64,000 bases of DNA, taken from Halosimplex rubrum. Its GTDB lineage: Archaea > Halobacteriota > Halobacteria > Halobacteriales > Haloarculaceae. Under the pieces are notes generated by a model, which saw only the letters and a list, made by a program, of their open reading frames with translations, had not been told where the DNA came from and did not search any database. Positions within the stretch are counted from its first letter, which is position 1; each line of letters starts with the position of its first letter. Position numbers and translations under genes: made by a program. Positions 30,522-42,875 of the stretch are shown here, in pieces. The stretch is from NCBI RefSeq assembly GCF_013415885.1, contig NZ_CP058910.1, positions 2,046,001-2,110,000 of the forward strand, in the 5' to 3' direction.

Positions 30522-31988
30522 ATGCGACCGACCCTCAAGCGACGGATCGGGCTCGCGCTGGGTGGGCAGTTCGCTCACGCGTGCTATCAGGTGGTGGTCT
30601 TCCTGGTCGCGCCGGGGCTGTGGCCGGTGCTCGGCGGGATGGGCGTTCTCGCGGCCGCGGCGGGGTTCGCGTACGCCTACCGCGACATCGACCGGGCGCT
30701 CGACGAGCGAGCGAGCGAGCGCCGGGAACTGCAGACCGCGCTGACCGAGGCCGAGCGCGAGCGCGACGACCTCCGCTCGCGGCTGGACGACGCGGAGGCC
30801 GAACTGGTGGACCGCCGGGCGGGACCGGACGCCGGACCCACCGGGCCGGTCGTCGCGGCTCCGGACGGCGGTGTCCAGACCGCCGACGACGCCGCGCTGG
30901 CCGACTACGAGGGCAGCGTCCGAACGGCCGGGACGGCGCTGGGCGCGTTCGGCGACGGCGATCTGACCCAGCGGCTCGACGCCGACGACGACTCCGAGGC
31001 GCTCGCGGCCCTCGCGGCGGAGTTCAACGAGATGGCCGCGACCTTCGAGCAGACGTTCGAGGCGGCCGCCGGCTTCAGCGACGAGGTCGTCGGCTCCTCG
31101 GAGCAGGTGACGACCGCGACCCAGGCGGTGACCGACTCCAGCGAGAAGGTCGCCCAGCGCGTCGCCGAGATCGCCGACGTGTTCCACGATCAACACCAGC
31201 AGATCAGCGGGATCTCCGACGAGATGTCAGACATGTCGGCGACCGTCGAGGAGATCGCCGCCTCCTCCGACGAGGTCAAGGAGATGGCCGACCGGACCGA
31301 GCGCTCGACGGTCGAGGGGATCGAGGCCGGCCGCTCGGCGCGAGACACCATGGACGAGGCCCAGGACCAGATCGAGGGCGTCGTCGAGACGGTCACCGAA
31401 CTCGACGAGCGGATGGACGAGGTCGGCCAGATCGTCGACCTCATCGACGACATCGCCGAGCAGACCAACATCCTCGCGCTGAACGCCTCGATCGAGGCGG
31501 CCCACGCCTCGGCGGGCGCGAACGACAACGGCTTCGGCGTCGTCGCCGACGAGGTCAAGAGCCTCGCCGAGGAGACCAAAGACGCCACCGACGAGATCGC
31601 GGGGCTCATCGGCGAGATCCAGGACCAGACCGACGAGACCGTCGAGGAGATCACCGACATGCAGTCGACCATCGACGAGGGCAAAGACACGGTCGGCGAG
31701 GGCCTGGACGCCCTCGAATCGATCCTCGAACACGTCCAGCAGACCGCCTCGGGCGTCACCGAGATCTCCAACGCCACCGACGACCAGGCCGCCTCCTCGG
31801 AGGAGGTCGCCGCCATCGCCGACGAGGCCGCCGAGACCAGCAAAGAGAACGTCGAGGTGGCCGAGGAGGTCGCCGCCATCGCCGAGGAGCAGAACCTCGC
31901 GCTCTCGGAGATGTACGTCAACGCGAAGATGCTCACGATGCGCGCCGAGCAGCTCTCGGCGCTGTTCGAGGGCTACGAGACCGAGTAG
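30522..31988 (+). CDS. Methyl-accepting transducer (Htr-type)
   Basis: 488-residue chemotaxis or phototaxis-type signal transducer. Two hydrophobic N-terminal segments (about 10-32 and 33-50) anchor it with almost no outer loop, so it probably senses a cytoplasmic cue or a partner protein. A HAMP-like part (about 105-175, with GDLTQRLDADDDSEAL) leads into the signalling domain, whose hairpin tip is VGQIVDLIDDIAEQTNILALNASIEAAHA (CheA/CheW contact). Methylation-type Glu/Gln pairs flank it. A CheW gene lies 10 kb downstream. Confidence 0.9.
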   Translation: MRPTLKRRIGLALGGQFAHACYQVVVFLVAPGLWPVLGGMGVLAAAAGFAYAYRDIDRALDERASERRELQTALTEAERERDDLRSRLDDAEAELVDRRAGPDAGPTGPVVAAPDGGVQTADDAALADYEGSVRTAGTALGAFGDGDLTQRLDADDDSEALAALAAEFNEMAATFEQTFEAAAGFSDEVVGSSEQVTTATQAVTDSSEKVAQRVAEIADVFHDQHQQISGISDEMSDMSATVEEIAASSDEVKEMADRTERSTVEGIEAGRSARDTMDEAQDQIEGVVETVTELDERMDEVGQIVDLIDDIAEQTNILALNASIEAAHASAGANDNGFGVVADEVKSLAEETKDATDEIAGLIGEIQDQTDETVEEITDMQSTIDEGKDTVGEGLDALESILEHVQQTASGVTEISNATDDQAASSEEVAAIADEAAETSKENVEVAEEVAAIAEEQNLALSEMYVNAKMLTMRAEQLSALFEGYETE

Positions 31989-32005
31989 GGTCGAGCGCTC
32001 CCGGA

Positions 32006-32229
32006 TCGGGTCGGGTCGGGTCGGGTCGGGTCGGGTCGGGTCGGGTCGGGTCGGGTCGGGTCGGGTCGGGTCGGGTCGGGTCGGGTCGGGTCGGGTCGGG
32101 TCGGGTCGGGTCGGGTCGGGTCGGGTCGGGTCGGGTCGGGTCGGGTCGGGTCGGGTCGGGTCGGGTCGGGTCGGGTCGGGTCGGGTCGGGTCGGGTCGGG
32201 TCGGGTCGGGTCGGGTCGGGTCGGGTCGG
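32006..32229 (+). repeat. TCGGG pentanucleotide tract, 44 perfect copies
   Basis: TCGGG is repeated 44 times without a single mismatch (32006-32225), plus a partial unit TCGG. It begins 17 nt after the transducer stop and ends about 57 nt before the TATA box of the next gene. The G-rich strand carries GGG every 5 nt, so it can in principle form G-quadruplexes. Because 5 is not a multiple of 3, the open frames across it are artefacts of the repeat. Confidence 0.97.
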
Positions 32230-32318
32230 TCCCGGTCGCTGCGGTCCGTTTGCTCCCACCGCGCCGTTCGGCGCCGTCTCGCGACGCCTTTAACTCCCGC
32301 TGCCGAGCAGTACCGACC

Positions 32319-34092: not shown

Positions 34093-35127
34093 TCAGGCGT
34101 TGTCGACGAGGCGGCCGGCGATGCGCTGGGCGCCCAGCGACGGCGAGATGTCGGGGTGGTCGGCGGCGACGGCCTCGACCTCGCGGTCGAGTTCCTCGCT
34201 GACCCGCTTTTCGAACTCCTCGACGATGCCGGGGATGCAGGCCATGCCCCCGGTGAGGACGATGCGGTTGTCCAGCGCCAGCTGGTAGACCTTCATGTAG
34301 TCGTTGGCCAGTTCCGGGAGGAACGTGTTGCAGAACTCCTCGACGGCGTCGTCGAGGTACTCGTTGCAGGCGTCCATGACGCTGCGCTCGATGGTGAACT
34401 CGTGGGCGCCGCCGCCGGGCTGCTGGATGATGTCCGTGAACGGCTCGAACTCGTCGAAGTCGGCGTGTTCCTCCTTGTACTCCCGGGCGGTCTGGGTGTC
34501 GATGTTGACCCGGCCCTGGGTCTCCTCCTCGACGTAGTTGGCGATCATCCGGTCGACTTCGTTGCCGGTGACGGCGCCGGTCGTGAACGGCGCGAGCTGT
34601 TCGCCGCGGCGGTAGCCCGACGCCTCGAGGTTCGTCGACCCCATGTTGACGGCGACGAAGATATCCTCGATCGCTTCGAGGTCGTCGCCGCGGGCGGGGA
34701 TGGCGCCACAGAGCGACTCGGGGTAGCTCTCGACCAGCGCCTGCCCGATGGACGACTCCTCGATGACCTCCTCTAGGTTCTCCAGGCCCTCGGGGTTGTC
34801 GATGGTCGGGATGGCGTAGACGACGCCGCTGTTCTCGGGCACGTCGTTGGCGTCGATGACCTCCTCGAAGAACGTCTTCGTCAGCTCCGCGCGCTCCTCG
34901 TCCTCGGGCAGACCCGACCGGAGCATGAACTGGACCTCGTCGGGGTACTCCGTGGCCGCCTCCTCGCCGTAGAGGACCCGTTCCTCGCCCGTGAGAGCGT
35001 CCTCGTAGGTCGCCAGACAGGTCAGCGTCCGGATCGTCTGGATCTCGCCGTCGTCGTCGGGATAGGCGATCACCGTGCGGGTACTGCCGAGTTTCACGCC
35101 GATGGGCACCGGCTCGTCGTCGCTCAT
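34093..35127 (-). CDS. Actin/MreB/Hsp70-fold ATPase (salactin-like)
   Basis: 344-residue protein with the actin-fold nucleotide site: phosphate-1 loop GVKLGSTRTVIAY (about 9-21), phosphate-2 region VAVNMGSTNLEASGYRRGE, and adenosine motif VLTGGMACIPGI. It lacks MreB's membrane-binding features and the Hsp70 substrate domain. The size and haloarchaeal character suggest the group that includes salactin, a dynamically unstable filament from Halobacterium; that match is from memory and not verified. It is a single gene, divergent from the RND operon. Confidence 0.7.
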   Translation of the reverse strand: MSDDEPVPIGVKLGSTRTVIAYPDDDGEIQTIRTLTCLATYEDALTGEERVLYGEEAATEYPDEVQFMLRSGLPEDEERAELTKTFFEEVIDANDVPENSGVVYAIPTIDNPEGLENLEEVIEESSIGQALVESYPESLCGAIPARGDDLEAIEDIFVAVNMGSTNLEASGYRRGEQLAPFTTGAVTGNEVDRMIANYVEEETQGRVNIDTQTAREYKEEHADFDEFEPFTDIIQQPGGGAHEFTIERSVMDACNEYLDDAVEEFCNTFLPELANDYMKVYQLALDNRIVLTGGMACIPGIVEEFEKRVSEELDREVEAVAADHPDISPSLGAQRIAGRLVDNA

Positions 35128-35372: not shown

Positions 35373-35414
35373 ATGGACGCATACATATCGGGAGACCGGC
35401 GGAGGGGTCGCTGA
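35373..35414 (+). CDS. 13-codon leader ORF coupled to the RND gene
   Basis: The ORF encodes MDAYISGDRRRGR and ends with TGA overlapping the ATG of the exporter gene (TGATG). A purine-rich GGAGGGG (35401-35407) inside it lies 6 nt before the exporter start and can act as its Shine-Dalgarno site. The arrangement mirrors the 13-codon leader before the ACT gene at 14790. Confidence 0.4.
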   Translation: MDAYISGDRRRGR

Positions 35415-38400
35415 TGGTCGGGATGGACGACGTGGCCGACGCCGTCGTCGACCACCGGCGGCTGGTGGTCGTGACCCTGCTCGTGGTGATCGGCGCGGTC
35501 GGCGCCGGCGCGGCGCAGGTCGAGGACTCGGCGTCGCTGTCGCAGTTCGAGACGAGCTCCGACGAGGCCGAGAAGCTCGAGTACGTCGACTCGAACTTCG
35601 GGTCGAGCGGGAACACGACGACCGTCCAGGTGATCGTCCGCGAGGACAACGTCCTCGCCCGCGAGTCGCTGCTCGAACAGTTGCGCTTCGAGCGCGCGCT
35701 CGTCGAGGACGACTCGATCAACCGAACGCTCGACGGGTCACAGGCTCCGGCGGGGATCGCCAACGTCGTCGCGACCGCGGCGATCCGGGAGGGGCAGGCG
35801 GCGAACCTGACCGAGCGCGGCCGGGCGCTGGGGGCCGAGCGCCAGCGGCTCAACGAGACCGGCGCGCGGCTGAGCGACGCCCTCAACCGGACGCGAGGGC
35901 TGCAACGGGACTACGTCGCGCTCAACCGCTCGCACGCCGCCGGCGAGGTCGACGACGCGACCTACCGTCAGCGGTCGGCGGCCATCGAGCGGAACCTGAC
36001 CGCCGTCCGGACCGACGCGACCGCGGGGCTGTCGGCCAACCAGAGCGAGACGTTCGGGAATCTCACCTCGCAGGCGCGGACGCTCCAGTCGCGGCTGGCC
36101 GCGCTGAACGCCTCCTACGAGCGGGGCGAGATCAACGAGTCGACCTATCGCCAGCGCTCCGGCGAGATCCAGGCGCAGTTCGGCGAGGTGTACGCCGGCA
36201 TCGAACGCGTCCTCGCGCCGGACGCCCGCGCGCTGGAGGAGCGGGCCGCCGCCCTGCAGGCCGACCGGGCCGCGCTCCAGGAGCGCGCCGAGAACGGTTC
36301 GACGCCGCCGCTCGCCGACCAGATCGACCGGATCGAGTCGATGAACGCCTCGGCGGTCGAGGCGAGCGTCGAGCGGGTGCTGAGCGAGGGGAGCGGGACG
36401 CAGGCGTTCGCGCTGATGCCGACCAGCTACGACCTCGGCTCGACGAGCGCCGACGCGACGATGATCGTCGTCACGCAGACGACGGAGTCGGCGGTCGCCC
36501 AGGGGTCGGCGAGCGCGCGCCTCCAGAACAGCCAGACCGAGATTCAGGACGTCGCCCGTGACCGGCTGAGCGGCGACGCGATGGTCTTCGGCGCGGGCAT
36601 CATCGCCGACGAGACCAACCGGTCGATGCAGGACAGCCTCACCGTCGTCGGTCCGTTCGCGATCCTATTCGTCCTCGTGGTGCTGACGGTCGCCTACCGG
36701 GACCTGCTGGACATCCTGCTGGGCGTCTTCGGGCTGGCGCTCACGTTGCTCCTGACGTTCGGCTACATGGGCTGGACGGGCGTGGCGTTCAACCAGCTGT
36801 TCGTCGCCATCCCGGTCCTGCTGATCGGGCTGTCGATCGACTACGCGATACACGTGTTCATGCGCCACCGGGAGGCACGCGAGGCGCGAAGCGCCTCGGA
36901 CGGCCGAGCGGGGAGCGACGCGACCCGCGAGGCGCGCGGCACGGAGGGAGACGGGGGCGACCCCGCGGCGGTCGCGGGGTCGATGCGGACGGCGCTGGCC
37001 GGCGTCGGCACGGCGCTGGTGCTGGTGACCGCGACGACCGTGATCGGGTTCCTCTCGAATCTCACCAGCCCCGTCGGTCCGATCCGCGAGTTCGGGATCG
37101 TCAGCGCGGTCGGCATCGTCGGCGCGCTCGTCGTCTTCGGCGCGCTGATCCCGGCGATCAAGGTCGAGGTCGACGCCGTCCTCGAAGGCCGCGGGTTCGA
37201 CCGACGCAAGCGGGCGTTCGGTACCGGCGGCGGGGCGTTCGGCCGCCTGCTCGAAGCCGGCGCGACGGCGGCCGACCGGGCGCCGTGGGCGGTCATTCTC
37301 GCCACGCTGCTGATCAGCGCCGGCGGTGCCTACGGCGCGACCGAGGTCGACACCTCCTTCGCGCAGACGGACTTCATCGCCGAGGAGCCGCCCGAGTGGA
37401 TGGATAACCTACCCGAGGAGATGCGACCCGGCGAGTACTCGATGCGGGCGACCTTCGAGTACGTCAACGACAACTTCCTGCGGGAGGACGCGACCGCGGA
37501 GTTCCTCTTCGAGGGCGAGGTGGCGACCGGCGACGCCCTCCAGCGGGTGAACCGGACCGGTGAACTCGCCGCCGAGAAGGGGGTGACCGTCGAGCTCTCG
37601 AACGGCGAGGCGGACGTGCGGAGCCCGCTGACGGTCATGCGGTCGGTCGCGGCGACCAACGAGACGTTCAACGCGACGCTGGCCGCCAGCGACACCGACG
37701 GCGACGGCGTCCCCGACCGCGACGTGGCGGGCGTCTTCGACGCCCTGTACGAGACGGCGCCCGACCAGGCCCGCCAGTACGTCCAGCGCGAGGACGGCGA
37801 GTACGAGGCCCTGCTGCTCACGGCGTCGCTGCGCGGCGGCGCCTCGGGGTCGGCGGTCACGACCCAGATGGACGCCGTCGAGTCGGCCGTCTCCGGCGGC
37901 GACGTGACCGTCACCGCGACCGGTCGGCCGATCGTCAACGAGATCGTCCAGTCGGACCTGCTCACCACCGTCGTCGAGAGCCTGATCATCACGCTCGTCG
38001 TCTCGTTCGTCTTCCTGATGGTCGTCTATCGCGTCGCGGAGGGGTCGGCGACGCTCGGGCTCGTGACGCTGTTGCCGGTCGTCTTCAACGTCTCGTGGAT
38101 CCTCGGGACGATGTACCTGCTGGAGATCCCCTTCAACGTGTTGACGGGGATGATCACGAGCCTGACCATCGGCCTCGGGGTGGCCTACTCGATCCACCTC
38201 AGCGAGCGGTTCAGTCTCGAACTGGATCGACGGGAGTCGGGCAGCGAGGCGATGCATACCGCCGTCACCGGCACCGGCGGTGCGCTGCTGGGGTCGGCGG
38301 CGACGACCGTCGGCGGCTTCGGCGTCCTCGTGTTCGCCATCCTGCCGCCGCTCCAGCAGTTCGGCTTCATCACCGGGCTCACGATCGTCTACGCGTTCCT

Positions 38401-39298
38401 CGCGAGCGTGTTCGTCCTCCCGAGCCTGCTCGCGGTGTGGAGCCGCCACTTCGGGCCCGCCGGCGCGTTCGACGCCGACGGCACCGGTGACGACGGGTCC
38501 GACGGCGGCGCGCCGACGGCGGACCCGATCGCCGGCGGCGCGGACGGTCGGTCCCCGGCGGTCGACGAACCCGCGGGGGCCGCCGATGGTGTCTCGTCGG
38601 GCGTCGGTTCGGCGGGATCGTCGGGTGCGGCGACCGCCGCGACCCCGACGGCCGGCGCGCGGACGAACGGCGACGCGGTGCCGTACGCCACCCGATCCGT
38701 CGAACCGACTCGCGTCTATCCCGGCGGGACCGCGCGCGTGACGGTCGCGCTCCCGTCGGCTTCGGGCCGGGTCGTCCTCCGCGAGACGCCGTCGGTCGGG
38801 TCGGTTTCGATCGACCGCGTCTCGCCCGAACCCGTCGAGCGGGTCGCCGCCGACGGGCGGGTGTACGCCGTCTGGGAGCTCGACGCCGAGGACGGCGAGC
38901 GAGCGGAACTCGAGTACACGCTCGCGGTCCCGGCGGGGCTGGCCGACGGCGAGACCGTCGCGTTCGACGGCGAGTTGCTCCTGCCGGACCACGCCGTGCC
39001 GGTCGCCGGCCCGGACGCGGCACCGGTCACGACGGACGTGGCCGGGGCCGTCATCGCCGACGGTCCCGTCGACGAGCGCGGCATCGCGGACGCGGGTCGG
39101 CACCTCGCGGCCGGACGGCTGTCGCCCGAGGCGTTCGAGCGCGTCACCCACGCGTGGCTCGACGAGCACGCCAGCGACGCGCCGACCGGCGAGTCGCCCC
39201 CGGGCGCGAACGGCTCGGGCGCGAACGGCTCGGGCGCGAGCGACTCGCGTGGGGACGCCCGCGCCGACGAGCGGCGGACGGAGGGGGACGATGACTGA
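35414..39298 (+). CDS. RND/MMPL-family exporter
   Basis: 1294-residue membrane protein with the double RND plan: one helix near the N-terminus (about 17-35), a long outer domain rich in N-x-T/S sites and coiled coil, a group of helices (about 410-600), a second outer domain, and a second group (about 855-1010). The family exports lipids, drugs or other hydrophobic compounds, driven by ions. The C-terminal 260 residues are an unusual soluble extension with a beta-rich part (SVEPTRVYPGGTARVTVALP) and a Gly/Ser/Asn tail. Residues about 490-520 in a cytoplasmic loop are an inserted palindromic repeat. The stop overlaps the TrmB-type regulator gene. Confidence 0.88.
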   Translation: MVGMDDVADAVVDHRRLVVVTLLVVIGAVGAGAAQVEDSASLSQFETSSDEAEKLEYVDSNFGSSGNTTTVQVIVREDNVLARESLLEQLRFERALVEDDSINRTLDGSQAPAGIANVVATAAIREGQAANLTERGRALGAERQRLNETGARLSDALNRTRGLQRDYVALNRSHAAGEVDDATYRQRSAAIERNLTAVRTDATAGLSANQSETFGNLTSQARTLQSRLAALNASYERGEINESTYRQRSGEIQAQFGEVYAGIERVLAPDARALEERAAALQADRAALQERAENGSTPPLADQIDRIESMNASAVEASVERVLSEGSGTQAFALMPTSYDLGSTSADATMIVVTQTTESAVAQGSASARLQNSQTEIQDVARDRLSGDAMVFGAGIIADETNRSMQDSLTVVGPFAILFVLVVLTVAYRDLLDILLGVFGLALTLLLTFGYMGWTGVAFNQLFVAIPVLLIGLSIDYAIHVFMRHREAREARSASDGRAGSDATREARGTEGDGGDPAAVAGSMRTALAGVGTALVLVTATTVIGFLSNLTSPVGPIREFGIVSAVGIVGALVVFGALIPAIKVEVDAVLEGRGFDRRKRAFGTGGGAFGRLLEAGATAADRAPWAVILATLLISAGGAYGATEVDTSFAQTDFIAEEPPEWMDNLPEEMRPGEYSMRATFEYVNDNFLREDATAEFLFEGEVATGDALQRVNRTGELAAEKGVTVELSNGEADVRSPLTVMRSVAATNETFNATLAASDTDGDGVPDRDVAGVFDALYETAPDQARQYVQREDGEYEALLLTASLRGGASGSAVTTQMDAVESAVSGGDVTVTATGRPIVNEIVQSDLLTTVVESLIITLVVSFVFLMVVYRVAEGSATLGLVTLLPVVFNVSWILGTMYLLEIPFNVLTGMITSLTIGLGVAYSIHLSERFSLELDRRESGSEAMHTAVTGTGGALLGSAATTVGGFGVLVFAILPPLQQFGFITGLTIVYAFLASVFVLPSLLAVWSRHFGPAGAFDADGTGDDGSDGGAPTADPIAGGADGRSPAVDEPAGAADGVSSGVGSAGSSGAATAATPTAGARTNGDAVPYATRSVEPTRVYPGGTARVTVALPSASGRVVLRETPSVGSVSIDRVSPEPVERVAADGRVYAVWELDAEDGERAELEYTLAVPAGLADGETVAFDGELLLPDHAVPVAGPDAAPVTTDVAGAVIADGPVDERGIADAGRHLAAGRLSPEAFERVTHAWLDEHASDAPTGESPPGANGSGANGSGASDSRGDARADERRTEGDDD
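36880..36937 (+). repeat. Palindromic repeat inside the RND gene
   Basis: CGAGGCGC-GAA-GCGCCTCG (36880-36898) followed by GACGGCCGAGCGGGGA and GACCCGCGAG. It matches the repeats at 23360-23410 and 43730-43790. It encodes EARSASDGRAGSDATREA within a loop that is normally short in this family. Confidence 0.65.
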
Positions 39299-40073
39299 CG
39301 ACGGCGAGGCCGAGGCGGTCGAGGCGCTCCAGCGGCTCGGGCTCTCGAAGTACGAGGCGGGGGTGTTCGTCGCCCTCGAACGGCTCGGGACCGGGACCGC
39401 CCGCGACGTGGACCGGATGACCGACGTGCCCCGCTCGCAGGTGTACGGCGCCGCCGAGAACCTCGAAGAGCGCGGCCTCGTCGAGGTCCAGCAGTCCAAC
39501 CCGATCCAGTACCGCGCGGTCCCGCTGGCGGAGGCCCGCGAGACGCTCGCCGAGCGCTTCGAGCGCGAGCAGGACCGCGCGTTCGAGTACCTCGAGGCGG
39601 CCAGGCGGGGCGCCGACCACGAGGACGAACACCAGGAGGGCGTCTGGACCGTTCACGGCCGCGACAACGTCTCCTCGCGGGTCCGGCAGATCGTCGCCGA
39701 CGCCGAGGAGAGCGTCCTCTACGCGGGCGGGACGGACCTGCTCGACGACGAGGTCGCCGCGGCCCTGCGCGAGCGGGCCGAGGAGGTCGACGTGTGGGTC
39801 TGCAGCGCGCACGTCGACGACCCGGAACTCGCCGAGGCGTTCGCCGATTCGGCGGTCACGCTCGCGCCGTTCCCGGACGACCCGACCGACGACGCCGCCG
39901 GGCGGCTGCTCGCCGTCGACGGCCACACGATCCTGCTCAGCGTCCTCGGCGGCGAGGAACTGCCGGGCGTCCGCAAGGAGACCGCCATCTGGAGCGCCGA
40001 CACCGGGATCGCGACGGTCCTGCTGGAGCTGTTGCGAAGTCACGTCGTCGACGACATCGACGCAGAACTGTAG
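39291..40073 (+). CDS. TrmB-family transcriptional regulator
   Basis: 260-residue protein. Residues about 8-80 form a winged helix of the TrmB type (LGLSKYEAGVFVALERLG, then ARDVDRMTDVPRSQVYGAAENLEERGLV). The C-terminal part (about 120-255) resembles the phospholipase-D-like or effector domain of TrmB proteins without the sugar-binding site. It overlaps the exporter gene by 8 nt, so it probably controls its own operon, perhaps through the inverted repeat at 35341-35360. Confidence 0.85.
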   Translation: MTDDGEAEAVEALQRLGLSKYEAGVFVALERLGTGTARDVDRMTDVPRSQVYGAAENLEERGLVEVQQSNPIQYRAVPLAEARETLAERFEREQDRAFEYLEAARRGADHEDEHQEGVWTVHGRDNVSSRVRQIVADAEESVLYAGGTDLLDDEVAAALRERAEEVDVWVCSAHVDDPELAEAFADSAVTLAPFPDDPTDDAAGRLLAVDGHTILLSVLGGEELPGVRKETAIWSADTGIATVLLELLRSHVVDDIDAEL

Positions 40074-40141: not shown

Positions 40142-40669
40142 CTACTGCATCCCGGTGAGCTTGGCGACGTAGACGAGACTGAGCATGTGGTCGTCCACGT
40201 CGAGGTCGTTGCCGTCGTTCGACCCGCTCTCGTCGATCCCCAGGAGGTAGTCGTTGAGCTGGCCGGCCACGTCCTCGGTGATCCAGTCGATCGACTCGTA
40301 GTAGCTCAGCGCGTCGGCGGCGCCCTTGTAGCCGGCGTGCATCAGCAGGAACTCCAGCCACTCGAAGACGACGAACTCGGCGGCGTACGTGTCGGGCACG
40401 GCCCGCAGATACGGCTTTTCGAGGTCCTCGGAGCCGCCGACCAGCGGGAGGAGTTCGCGGTAGAGCCCCGCGCGGAACGAGTCACCGGCGGACATGCTCG
40501 CGTCGCCCACGTCGTCGAGGGGCCCCCACTCCGCCTCGCTCGGGTCGTCCGGCCGCGGGTCCTCCGGTCGGCCGTCGCTCGGTCGCGGGTCCTCGGCGTC
40601 GAGGTCGTCGCGCTTGCGCGCCATCTCGCGCAGCTCGTTTAAGTCGTAGTCCCGGGGGTTGATCGTCAT
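40142..40669 (-). CDS. ArlD/E (FlaD/E)-domain protein
   Basis: 175-residue protein. The C-terminal half (about 80-140) carries the conserved domain of archaellum accessory proteins ArlD/ArlE: YLRAVPDTYAAEFVVFEWLE followed by FLLMHAGYKGAADALSYYESIDWI. The N-terminal half is acidic and charged with DPRPSDGRPEDPRPDD repeats, and lacks the coiled coil of full-length ArlD. No other archaellum genes lie in this window. It is divergent from a ParA-CheW pair, which suggests a chemotaxis or motor-positioning role. Confidence 0.8.
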   Translation of the reverse strand: MTINPRDYDLNELREMARKRDDLDAEDPRPSDGRPEDPRPDDPSEAEWGPLDDVGDASMSAGDSFRAGLYRELLPLVGGSEDLEKPYLRAVPDTYAAEFVVFEWLEFLLMHAGYKGAADALSYYESIDWITEDVAGQLNDYLLGIDESGSNDGNDLDVDDHMLSLVYVAKLTGMQ

Positions 40670-40851
40670 CGATACTGAGTCTATTCCGCCCCGTCCTGAT
40701 AAATCTTGCACACGGTCAGACGCCCGTCTGACGGCGTCTCGGCCGTGTTCGGTCCGCTCGCCGCCCGTCGCGGGCTGGCGATCTCGGAACGGCATCGGTC
40801 GCCGGCGGCCCGGCGGCCGGTCGCCGTCGACCGATTTCAACGTTTGATATC

Positions 40852-40875
40852 CCGGCGCGTAATTTTATACGCCGG
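40852..40875 (+). promoter_or_regulatory. parA promoter flanked by inverted repeat
   Basis: The TATA-like AATTTTATAC (40861-40870) is bracketed by CCGGCG (40852-40857) and CGCCGG (40870-40875). It is centred about 30 nt upstream of the parA GTG start. A factor bound to the arms would cover the TATA box; ParA proteins are often autoregulated. Confidence 0.45.
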
Positions 40876-40896
40876 TAGGGCCGACTCCGGGACAAC

Positions 40897-41793
40897 GTGG
40901 CGAGAAGCACCGGATCGGCGCGCATCTGCGTGACCAACGCGAAGGGCGGGACCGGCAAGACGACCGTCGCGATCAACGTCGCGGGGGCACTCTCAGAGCG
41001 CGGTCGCGACGTGCTGTTCGTCGACCTGGACCCGCAGGGTAACGCGACCGAGGGGCTCGGCCTGCTCGAGGAGTACGACGCGGCGCCGCCGACGCTGTTC
41101 GACGTGCTGACCGACGGCGACCAGCGCGACCGGATGGGCGAGCTGGTGGTCGAGCACCCCGAGATGGACGTGGTCCCGAGCAACATCGACATGCTCCAGG
41201 CCGAGCGCGAGCTGACCATCGCGGATCTGGTGGCCCGCGCGACCGAGGGCGACGCGGACATCGACCCGGCGGCGCTGTCGGCGCTGGCGGTCAACGTCAC
41301 GCCCGACACGGTCGCGGGCGGCCACGCGCTGGACACGCTCGACGACGCGCTCGCGGCCGTCGAGGACGACTACGACTACGTCGTCGTCGACTCGCCGCCG
41401 TTCTACGGCAAACTGACCGACACCGGCATCTACGCGACCCGGAACATCCTCGTTCCGGCGCTGACGGAGGCCACCTCCGAGCGGGCCATCGAGCTGCTCA
41501 TCGACCAGATGACCGCGCTGGAGGGCCAGACGGGCATCGCCGTCGACACGCTCGGCGTCGTGGCGAATCGGGTCGAGACCACGGGCGAGGACGAGACGAT
41601 GCTGGAGTGGTTCGAGGCGGTCTTCTCCGACGACGCCGTCTGGGAGGTCCGCAAGCGCGTGGCGCTCCAGCGGGCGTTCTCGGCGGGCGAGTCGATCTTC
41701 GCCTACGACCCGTCGGTCGACATGGCCGACGTGTTCCTCGATATCGCGGCGGATCTGGACCGGCAGTTCGACTACGCGGAGGTAACAGCATGA
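40897..41793 (+). CDS. parA: ParA/MinD-family ATPase
   Basis: 298-residue P-loop ATPase with deviant Walker A NAKGGTGKTT (14-23; the first Lys is typical of ParA/MinD), the switch FVDLDPQGNAT and Walker B VVVDSPPF. There is no C-terminal amphipathic MinD helix, so it resembles DNA- or cargo-positioning ParA proteins. GTG start, leaderless, with a TATA box 30 nt upstream. Its stop overlaps the CheW gene by 4 nt, a strong sign that it positions or counts chemosensory clusters. Confidence 0.9.
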   Translation: MARSTGSARICVTNAKGGTGKTTVAINVAGALSERGRDVLFVDLDPQGNATEGLGLLEEYDAAPPTLFDVLTDGDQRDRMGELVVEHPEMDVVPSNIDMLQAERELTIADLVARATEGDADIDPAALSALAVNVTPDTVAGGHALDTLDDALAAVEDDYDYVVVDSPPFYGKLTDTGIYATRNILVPALTEATSERAIELLIDQMTALEGQTGIAVDTLGVVANRVETTGEDETMLEWFEAVFSDDAVWEVRKRVALQRAFSAGESIFAYDPSVDMADVFLDIAADLDRQFDYAEVTA

Positions 41794-42875
41794 CCGACGA
41801 CGACGAACGCATGGACCGGGCCCGCCGCATCCGCGAGATGCGCGAGGGATCCCGGCCGGACGACGAGGCACAGGACGACGACCGAACCGACGCGGACGAC
41901 GACTCCGCCGACGCGACGGCCGACGAATCGGCGGCCGCCGAGCCCGACGAGGTGCCGGAAGGCGACGCCGGGTCCGACGAGGTGCCGGAAGGCGACGCCG
42001 GGTCCGACGAGGTGCCGGAAGGCGACGCCGAGTCCGGCGAACCGGCGGTCGACGAACCGGGCGAGCCGGACGGAGCGGCGGAGACGGAGGCCGACGGCGG
42101 CCCCGACGCGACCGACGACGGCGGCGACTCGACCGAGGGAGGCGCCGACCCCGCGGCGGACGACGAGCCGTCCGAGACCGGACCGTCCGCCGACGAGGCC
42201 GCCGAGGCCGTGGCGAACCTGGACATCGACGAGGAAGCGGTCGGCGGTGGCGGCGGCGACGACGGCGACGGCACTATCCACATCCCCGGCGCCGACGTGG
42301 GCGACGTGGACGTCGACGTGGCAGAGATGGCCCGTCAGGCCGGCCTGAGCTCCGGCGGCTCGGCGTCGGGAGACGGCGAACCGGCCGACGGCACCGAGGC
42401 CGCCGAGATGGGCATCGGCGCGGCGGGCCGGGCGGCGGCGGAACAGGAGACGGGCGAGGAGACCCGCGTGCTGGAGTTCGCGCTGGGCGACGAGCAGTAC
42501 TGTCTCGACATCGAGTACGTCGAGGAGATCGTCAAGCGCGAGACGGTCACGCGCGTGCCGAACACGCCCGACTGCGTCGAGGGCGTCGTCGACCTGCGCG
42601 GGCAGATCACGACCATCCTCGATCCGAAGGTCCTGCTCGACATCGACCAGGCGGGGAGCAAGGACCTCATCGTCGTCTTCGACCCCGAGGCGTTCGACGA
42701 CCAGGGCGCCGTCGGCTGGGTCGTCGACGACGTGAACCAGGTGACGCCGATCACCGAGGAGGAGGTCAACGACTCGCCCGTCGACCAGGACCACATCAAC
42801 GGCGTCGTCGACCGCGACGGCGATTTCGTCATCTGGACGACCCCCGAACTCGACCTCGACGAAGTGGCCGGGTAG
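41790..42875 (+). CDS. cheW: CheW-family chemotaxis coupling protein with long acidic extension
   Basis: 361 residues. The C-terminal CheW domain (about 225-361) contains VLEFALGDEQYCLDIEYVEE, GVVDLRGQITTILDPKVLL and the closing beta strand VIWTTPELDLDE, so it should bind CheA and transducer tips. The first 220 residues are disordered, very acidic, and include three copies of a 10-residue unit (DEVPEGDAGS) encoded by 30-bp repeats. Ordinary CheW is only about 150-180 residues. It is translationally coupled to parA. Confidence 0.92.
   Translation: MTDDDERMDRARRIREMREGSRPDDEAQDDDRTDADDDSADATADESAAAEPDEVPEGDAGSDEVPEGDAGSDEVPEGDAESGEPAVDEPGEPDGAAETEADGGPDATDDGGDSTEGGADPAADDEPSETGPSADEAAEAVANLDIDEEAVGGGGGDDGDGTIHIPGADVGDVDVDVAEMARQAGLSSGGSASGDGEPADGTEAAEMGIGAAGRAAAEQETGEETRVLEFALGDEQYCLDIEYVEEIVKRETVTRVPNTPDCVEGVVDLRGQITTILDPKVLLDIDQAGSKDLIVVFDPEAFDDQGAVGWVVDDVNQVTPITEEEVNDSPVDQDHINGVVDRDGDFVIWTTPELDLDEVAG
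41946..42035 (+). repeat. Three 30-bp tandem repeats in cheW
   Basis: The 30-bp unit begins GACGAGGTGCCGGAAGGCGA and is repeated at 41946, 41976 and 42006. The first two units are identical and the third differs only at its end (GAGTCC for GGGTCC). It encodes DEVPEGDAGS repeats. Unit number may vary between strains by slippage. Confidence 0.95.

Follow-up and report, generated by a model that had tools for sequence, protein, structure and literature searches.

A ParA-CheW gene pair of haloarchaea with features of plasmid partition modules: a candidate positioning system for chemoreceptor arrays

Results and discussion

In a 64,000-nucleotide stretch (hereafter, the window) of a 4.48-Mb haloarchaeal genome of the genus Halosimplex, we identified a ParA-type ATPase gene coupled to a gene for an N-terminally extended CheW, which together probably constitute a ParA-driven system, derived from a plasmid-partition module, that positions chemoreceptor arrays as its cargo. 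A positioning module for chemosensory arrays had also been the original prediction for this pair, and it remains the best reading given that the two genes are conserved as a coupled pair and that their products display the anatomy of a ParA and its cargo adaptor. The pair represents a candidate ATPase and adaptor for placing or inheriting chemosensory arrays in archaea, including a 16-residue candidate contact peptide. ParA-based array positioning pairs are already known in bacteria; what appears to be new here is an origin from plasmid partition modules via adaptor swapping, separate from the bacterial systems.

Organization of the locus

The features of the locus are summarized in Table 1. 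As originally predicted, parA and cheW are coupled by a 4-nt overlap (the cheW start and parA stop share ATGA), the CheW protein carries an acidic extension of ~221 aa, with the CheW domain beginning at about residue 222, and a DE-domain gene lies divergent from the pair. This DE-domain protein had been taken for an additional, stand-alone ArlD/E-domain protein, which does not hold. The window genome encodes exactly two DE-domain proteins, and since the other is a 556-aa ArlCE (FlaC plus DE) in an arl/che cluster at 3.89-3.91 Mb, 1.8 Mb from the window trio, the window protein, comprising a DE domain and no FlaC part, is the one ArlD that this genome encodes, at a site removed from the arl operon. 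Its start corresponds to a conserved MTINP(R/K)DYDL motif (at 40669), for which a TTG 170 nt upstream was dropped as a candidate start. The statement that no archaellum or other che genes are near also needs amending, as ArlD is itself an archaellum gene and an MCP-domain gene lies ~10 kb from the trio, which puts at least one further chemotaxis gene in the window. A long tandem repeat (~31990-32290), reading GRVGS in one frame and DPTRP on the other strand, lies downstream of this MCP gene.

Table 1. Features of the window at and around the parA-cheW-arlD locus.
Feature	Coordinates	Strand	Details and basis
MCP-domain transducer	30522..31988	+	488 aa
Salactin, polar actin homolog	34093..35127	-	344 aa; in most relatives the next gene downstream of arlD
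MMPL transporter and TrmB regulator	35414..40073	+	between salactin and arlD in the window genome
arlD (DE domain)	40142..40669	-	175 aa; Arch_fla_DE 3e-29; sole ArlD of the genome
Shared divergent promoter region, arlD-parA	40670..40896		227 bp; sequence, alignment
Inverted repeat GTCAGACGCCCGTCTGAC, possible operator	40715..40732		just upstream of the arlD TATA-like box
ParA-type ATPase	40897..41793	+	298 aa; GTG start at 40897; Pfam AAA_31/CbiA (AAA_31 2e-33)
CheW with N-terminal extension	41790..42875	+	361 aa; ATG at 41790; Pfam 6e-22
Candidate ParA-contacting basic peptide of CheW, RMDRARRIREMREGSR	41808..41855	+	residues 7-22; conservation, predicted helix
Acidic linker of CheW	41856..42452	+	residues 23-221; unconserved, low pLDDT; net charge about -66 in 202 aa
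CheW domain	42453..42872	+	Pfam, solved-structure matches, alignment

Conservation of the ParA-CheW pair

We searched 242 members of the haloarchaeal class and fetched the DNA of matching loci, with family-type labels inferred by matching named loci: Haloarculaceae-type (f1, which contains Haloarcula, Halomicrobium, Halorientalis and Salinibaculum), Natrialbaceae-type (f3) and Haloferacaceae-type (f4). An orthologous ParA followed by an extended CheW was found in all 34 Haloarculaceae-type genomes fetched with this ParA, the window genome included. Identity to the window ParA is 67-77% across other Haloarculaceae-type genomes, and 95% for the ParA of Halosimplex carlsbadense. Within this family type the two genes nearly always overlap by 4 or 8 nt, the exception being genome G138, where the nearest cheW start lies 10 nt past the parA stop. 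Also identified were 16 Natrialbaceae-type genomes in which a related ParA (47-52% identical) precedes an extended CheW, several of these pairs having an ordinary cheW and cheA within a few kb, i.e. lying inside a che cluster, and a third version of the pair in two Haloferacaceae-type genomes (g57; ParA about 65% identical). Nearly all of the Haloarculaceae-type, Natrialbaceae-type and g57 genomes examined share the ATGA overlap, and conservation of ParA and CheW as a coupled pair exceeds chance. DE-domain archaellum proteins occur in 52/52 pair-bearing genomes compared with 192/242 overall, counts which are not independent of relatedness, and the pair is absent from many motile haloarchaea.

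Two further loci merit description. In an assembly of Haloarcula rara (L246) the extended cheW runs out of frame before the CheW domain, which points to a disrupted gene or a faulty assembly. In genome G020 (L191:2562-5944) a third ParA-CheW pair directly follows an ArlCE-like gene in a che/arl cluster; its ParA is distant (35%) and it has no RAxR peptide, and it was left out of the counts.

A partition-type ATPase

The window ParA possesses a deviant Walker A motif (AKGGTGKTT) that starts at about residue 15 and contains the signature lysine (KGGxGKT), invariant in its ortholog group (A1). There is no N-terminal HTH preceding the Soj-like core, and the nearest solved structures are those of Soj/ParA. 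Against the archaeal MinD profile minD_arch the protein scores 77 bits, far below the curated cut-off of 201.75. Judged by its sequence, it is a partition-type (type Ib) ParA and not an archaeal MinD. Near the C-terminus, R252, K253, R254 and R259 (A1 numbering) are invariant in a putative basic patch, and the stretch VRKRVALQR aligns with IPKSVKLAE of Soj, the site of the basic C-terminal residues that serve Soj as a DNA-binding patch.

Conserved peptide, variable linker and CheW domain

Whether the CheW extension varies freely, a question raised with the original prediction, has a divided answer: residues 23-221 do so, but residues 7-22 are nearly invariant. In an alignment of 24 orthologs, R7, M8, R10, A11, R13, R15, R18 and G20 are invariant and no position between residues 23 and 225 is, with a mean majority fraction per column of 0.79 for residues 1-22, 0.30 for residues 23-221 and 0.77 for the CheW domain. 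Among six orthologs measured, net charge ranges from +4 to +6 for the basic peptide and from -47 to -76 for the linker. An AlphaFold model of this extended CheW comprises a helix at residues 3-18 (pLDDT ~83), after which confidence is low; the CheW domain itself is poorly modelled, probably because the alignment was shallow. The CheW domain of the window protein scores 78 bits against a Pfam cut-off of 23.5. Further, the residues that form the receptor-binding groove of Thermotoga maritima CheW, which binds receptor tips (L14, V27, I30 and V33; PMC5706961), align with L228, I241, V244 and I247 of the window protein, such that branched hydrophobic residues are kept.

Kinship with plasmid partition modules

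Residues 7-22 of the window CheW resemble the N-termini of the partition partners of related plasmid ParAs. The closest such case was found in Halococcus thailandensis, whose ParA is 69% identical to the window ParA and overlaps, again through ATGA, a gene for a 161-aa partner that takes the place of CheW and is followed by a gene with a ParB_N domain. This partner starts MSDEGESESDDRMGRADRIRNTREGRR, its peptide being DDRMGRADRIRNTREGRR. A profile built from the Haloarculaceae-type CheW peptides gives its N-terminus 24 bits, and gives more than 5 bits to only 0.6% of shuffled N-termini. Most other ParAs of the clan, many on plasmid contigs or records, are likewise coupled by this overlap to a small partner whose peptide is of the RAxRLRxRR type. 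All 25 matched plasmid records hold this ParA annotated as 'ParA family protein', and the plasmid ParAs are 36-57% identical to the window ParA. On Halobacterium salinarum pHS4 (56%), for example, the gene after parA overlaps it by 4 nt and begins MSGDEDNGQSRSERLRQRRQSR. Scores of the plasmid partners against the peptide profile are weak for most, with 6/25 above 5 bits, and their likeness derives also from the position, charge and R-A/S-x-R-L/I-R spacing of the peptide. The two g57 CheWs score below 0 on the same profile, yet their N-termini are basic.

The basic peptide motif was found in none of the ~45 CheWs examined outside the ParA-CheW module, and the CheW of a Haloferacaceae-type genome (G080) that is sister to the Haloarculaceae-type pair CheWs lacks it. 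The C-terminal domain of the small partners (~70 aa, unclassified) gave no convincing Pfam or NCBIfam family and no structural match; a ribbon-helix-helix fold, suspected from sequence, was rejected, as the model had no strand and no PDB match. The best reading of these comparisons is an adaptor switch, in which CheW would have replaced a plasmid-partition cargo domain on a ParA/peptide module.

Trees of both proteins bear on the number of such events. In the CheW tree, adaptor domains of Haloarculaceae-type and Natrialbaceae-type fall in different clades (100/100), and constraining the adaptor CheWs to one clade is rejected (p 2e-8). The ParA tree similarly rejects a single clade of CheW-associated ParAs (p 0.001), though no longer one enlarged to take in the Halococcus ParA (p 0.089). 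Since a common origin of the CheW-bearing partners is rejected, CheW appears to have joined the ParA/peptide module at least twice, and perhaps three times counting g57. This would constitute a case of ParA cargo switching, in which the same kind of ATPase and peptide carries either a plasmid-partition domain or CheW, the CheW form having arisen more than once.

Proposed function

We propose that ATP-bound ParA dimers bind nucleoid DNA via the basic patch near their C-terminus, and that the basic helix of CheW (residues 7-22) touches this dimer and, in the manner of a partition adaptor, stimulates its ATPase activity, as the common peptide and gene order suggest. A flexible tether would be provided by the long acidic linker, and the CheW domain would enter receptor arrays through its conserved receptor-binding groove; arrays may in turn follow ParA gradients, and thus be positioned or shared out at division. 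In partition adaptors a charged N-terminal peptide contacts ParA and the remainder serves the cargo (PMC10241942), and arginine-finger stimulation has been reviewed (PMC9178275). The combination of peptide, tether and cargo domain with a Soj-like basic stretch favours a nucleoid-based mode of array distribution or segregation, such as that of PpfA, over a membrane-based, MinD-like action.

Two other accounts of the pair were considered. The extended CheW might instead be a signalling modulator, tuning kinase recruitment in competition with CheW1 for receptors, with ParA setting its availability and not moving arrays. Such a role would parallel that of Halobacterium salinarum CheW2, which binds receptors, not CheA, and has been proposed as a CheW1 competitor (PMC3579733); however, the Halobacterium-type second CheW that we examined has no extension and the ATPase nearby is MinD-like rather than this ParA, and modulation alone leaves unexplained why the peptide is common to partition partners. 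We consider this account unlikely. Kinship of ParA with plasmid partition proteins could also mean that the pair still partitions DNA, with CheW a by-stander domain, but the good conservation of the CheW domain and its groove, and the chromosomal location of the pair, which several Natrialbaceae-type genomes have inside a che cluster, make this highly improbable. A possible parA1-cheW2 neighbourhood in Halobacterium was also evaluated as an instance of the same system and rejected, given the MinD-like ATPase and unextended second CheW of a Halobacterium-type genome; a literature search found no paper on parA1 beside cheW2.

Comparison with known systems

Vibrio ParC-ParP resembles the window pair in coupling a ParA-like gene to the gene of a CheW-like array protein; the N-terminal part of ParP binds the ATPase and its C-terminal CheW-like domain enters arrays (PMC5706961). 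The partner in the window pair has a conserved basic N-terminal peptide that is predicted to bind the ATPase. The AIF domain of ParP is nearer to CheA-P5 than to CheW (PMC5706961), whereas the window partner is a CheW proper: judged by its solved-structure matches, all to CheW, and by its placement among haloarchaeal CheWs in the tree, it does not appear to possess a ParP-type AIF. The resemblance of the window ATPase and peptide to haloarchaeal plasmid partition modules points, in addition, to an origin separate from ParC-ParP. Those plasmid modules (e.g. pHS4) share the ATGA overlap and basic N-terminal peptide with the window pair, differing in the ~70-aa domain that stands in place of CheW.

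To our knowledge, MinD2 and MinD4 are known players in archaeal array placement, and we know of no adaptors for them. In Haloferax volcanii these two ATPases, of the ParA/MinD superfamily like the window ParA, are required for polar arrays and archaella (PMC11588486); they differ in being of MinD type and in having no reported CheW partner gene. Closer in architecture is ParC-CheW of Halothiobacillus neapolitanus (Hn0722-Hn0723), where the ATPase and neighbouring genes overlap and CheW is taken as the ParC partner, its N-terminal peptide being docked on the ATPase; this system is bacterial and located in a chemotaxis operon, and a long acidic linker is not described in the portion of the study that served as our source (PMC10241942). 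In Rhodobacter sphaeroides PpfA-TlpT, arrays are likewise distributed by a nucleoid-type ParA to which the partner N-terminus binds (PMC5706961), the partner TlpT being a cytoplasmic receptor and not a CheW.

ArlD, Salactin and the shared intergenic region

ArlD is adjacent and divergent to the pair in 27 of the 34 Haloarculaceae-type genomes. It is located elsewhere in the other seven, which belong to genera g7 (named loci: Halorientalis) and g8, and does not adjoin the Natrialbaceae-type pairs. Of the conserved three-gene neighbourhood originally envisaged, the pair itself is therefore upheld, but the link to ArlD only in part, and a self-contained trio is not supported, Salactin being the more widespread partner of ArlD. 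Indeed, arlD in g7 and g8 mostly adjoins an actin gene named Salactin by Pfam, and among salactin-bearing genomes salactin has a DE-domain gene no more than 1 kb away in 30/40 Haloarculaceae-type genomes, 59/59 Haloferacaceae-type genomes and the single f5 genome (1/1), with one exception always upstream and on the same strand, compared with 0/8 Halobacterium-type genomes. The order salactin-arlD-parA-cheW is found within a few kb in 21 Haloarculaceae-type genomes. In most other genomes arlD and salactin are spaced by about 0.13-0.3 kb; in the window the MMPL and TrmB genes intervene. In one genome (G117:C5:296350-303434), DE-domain and salactin genes are interleaved in tandem (three DE and two salactin matches), perhaps through local duplication.

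Salactin forms dynamic filaments that grow from the cell poles, and has a DNA phenotype at low phosphate; synteny around the Halobacterium gene was reported to be poor (PMC10746226). In Haloferax volcanii, ArlD and HVO_1202, which we infer to be a Salactin homolog, are listed as a single transcriptional unit (PMC13286277). The arlD-salactin gene order is reported neither in the Salactin paper (PMC10746226) nor in other literature found, and is new; it provides a lead on the function of this pole-anchored archaeal actin. Together with the pair, this gene order defines a motility-and-polarity locus, contact between its two halves being only putative.

What the linkage to ArlD means can be read in several ways. 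ParA, CheW and ArlD could form one mechanical module in which ArlD, possibly along with Salactin filaments, links array placement to the archaellum base. Such coupling is possible, and consistent with the 27/34 adjacency, the compact four-gene cluster in 21 genomes, the polar start of Salactin filaments (PMC10746226) and the polar, MinD2/MinD4-dependent foci of ArlD-GFP and CheW in Haloferax (PMC11588486). However, seven genomes have ArlD away from the pair, ArlD does not adjoin the Natrialbaceae pairs, and Halobacterium salinarum without salactin has no motility defect (PMC10746226), and we regard a single mechanical module as doubtful. Equally tentative is a broader proposal of a haloarchaeal polar organization module, in which a partition ParA retargeted to arrays by adaptor swap is genetically joined to arlD and Salactin, and Salactin, instead of or in addition to serving DNA segregation, may act via ArlD at the archaellum pole. 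Alternatively, there may be no physical coupling at all, and the linkage may reflect nothing beyond joint control of the genes by a bidirectional promoter region. This explanation, to which we assign an even chance, is favoured by the 227-bp intergenic region, where an inverted repeat is conserved and two sites resemble promoters; it leaves unexplained why the arlD-salactin order is kept across families.

Co-regulation of arlD with the ParA-CheW pair is itself probable. TATA-like boxes, read by eye, precede each start by ~27-30 nt, as with leaderless transcripts, and the inverted repeat GTCAGACGNNCGTCTGAC is kept from Halosimplex to Halomicrobium, and in part in Haloarcula. The exact repeat occurs as a single copy in the genome; allowing up to three mismatches (<=3) gave 58 genome sites, compared with 18 for a reversed control. 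These near-matches may represent a regulon, and one of them lies ~190 bp upstream of arlCE.
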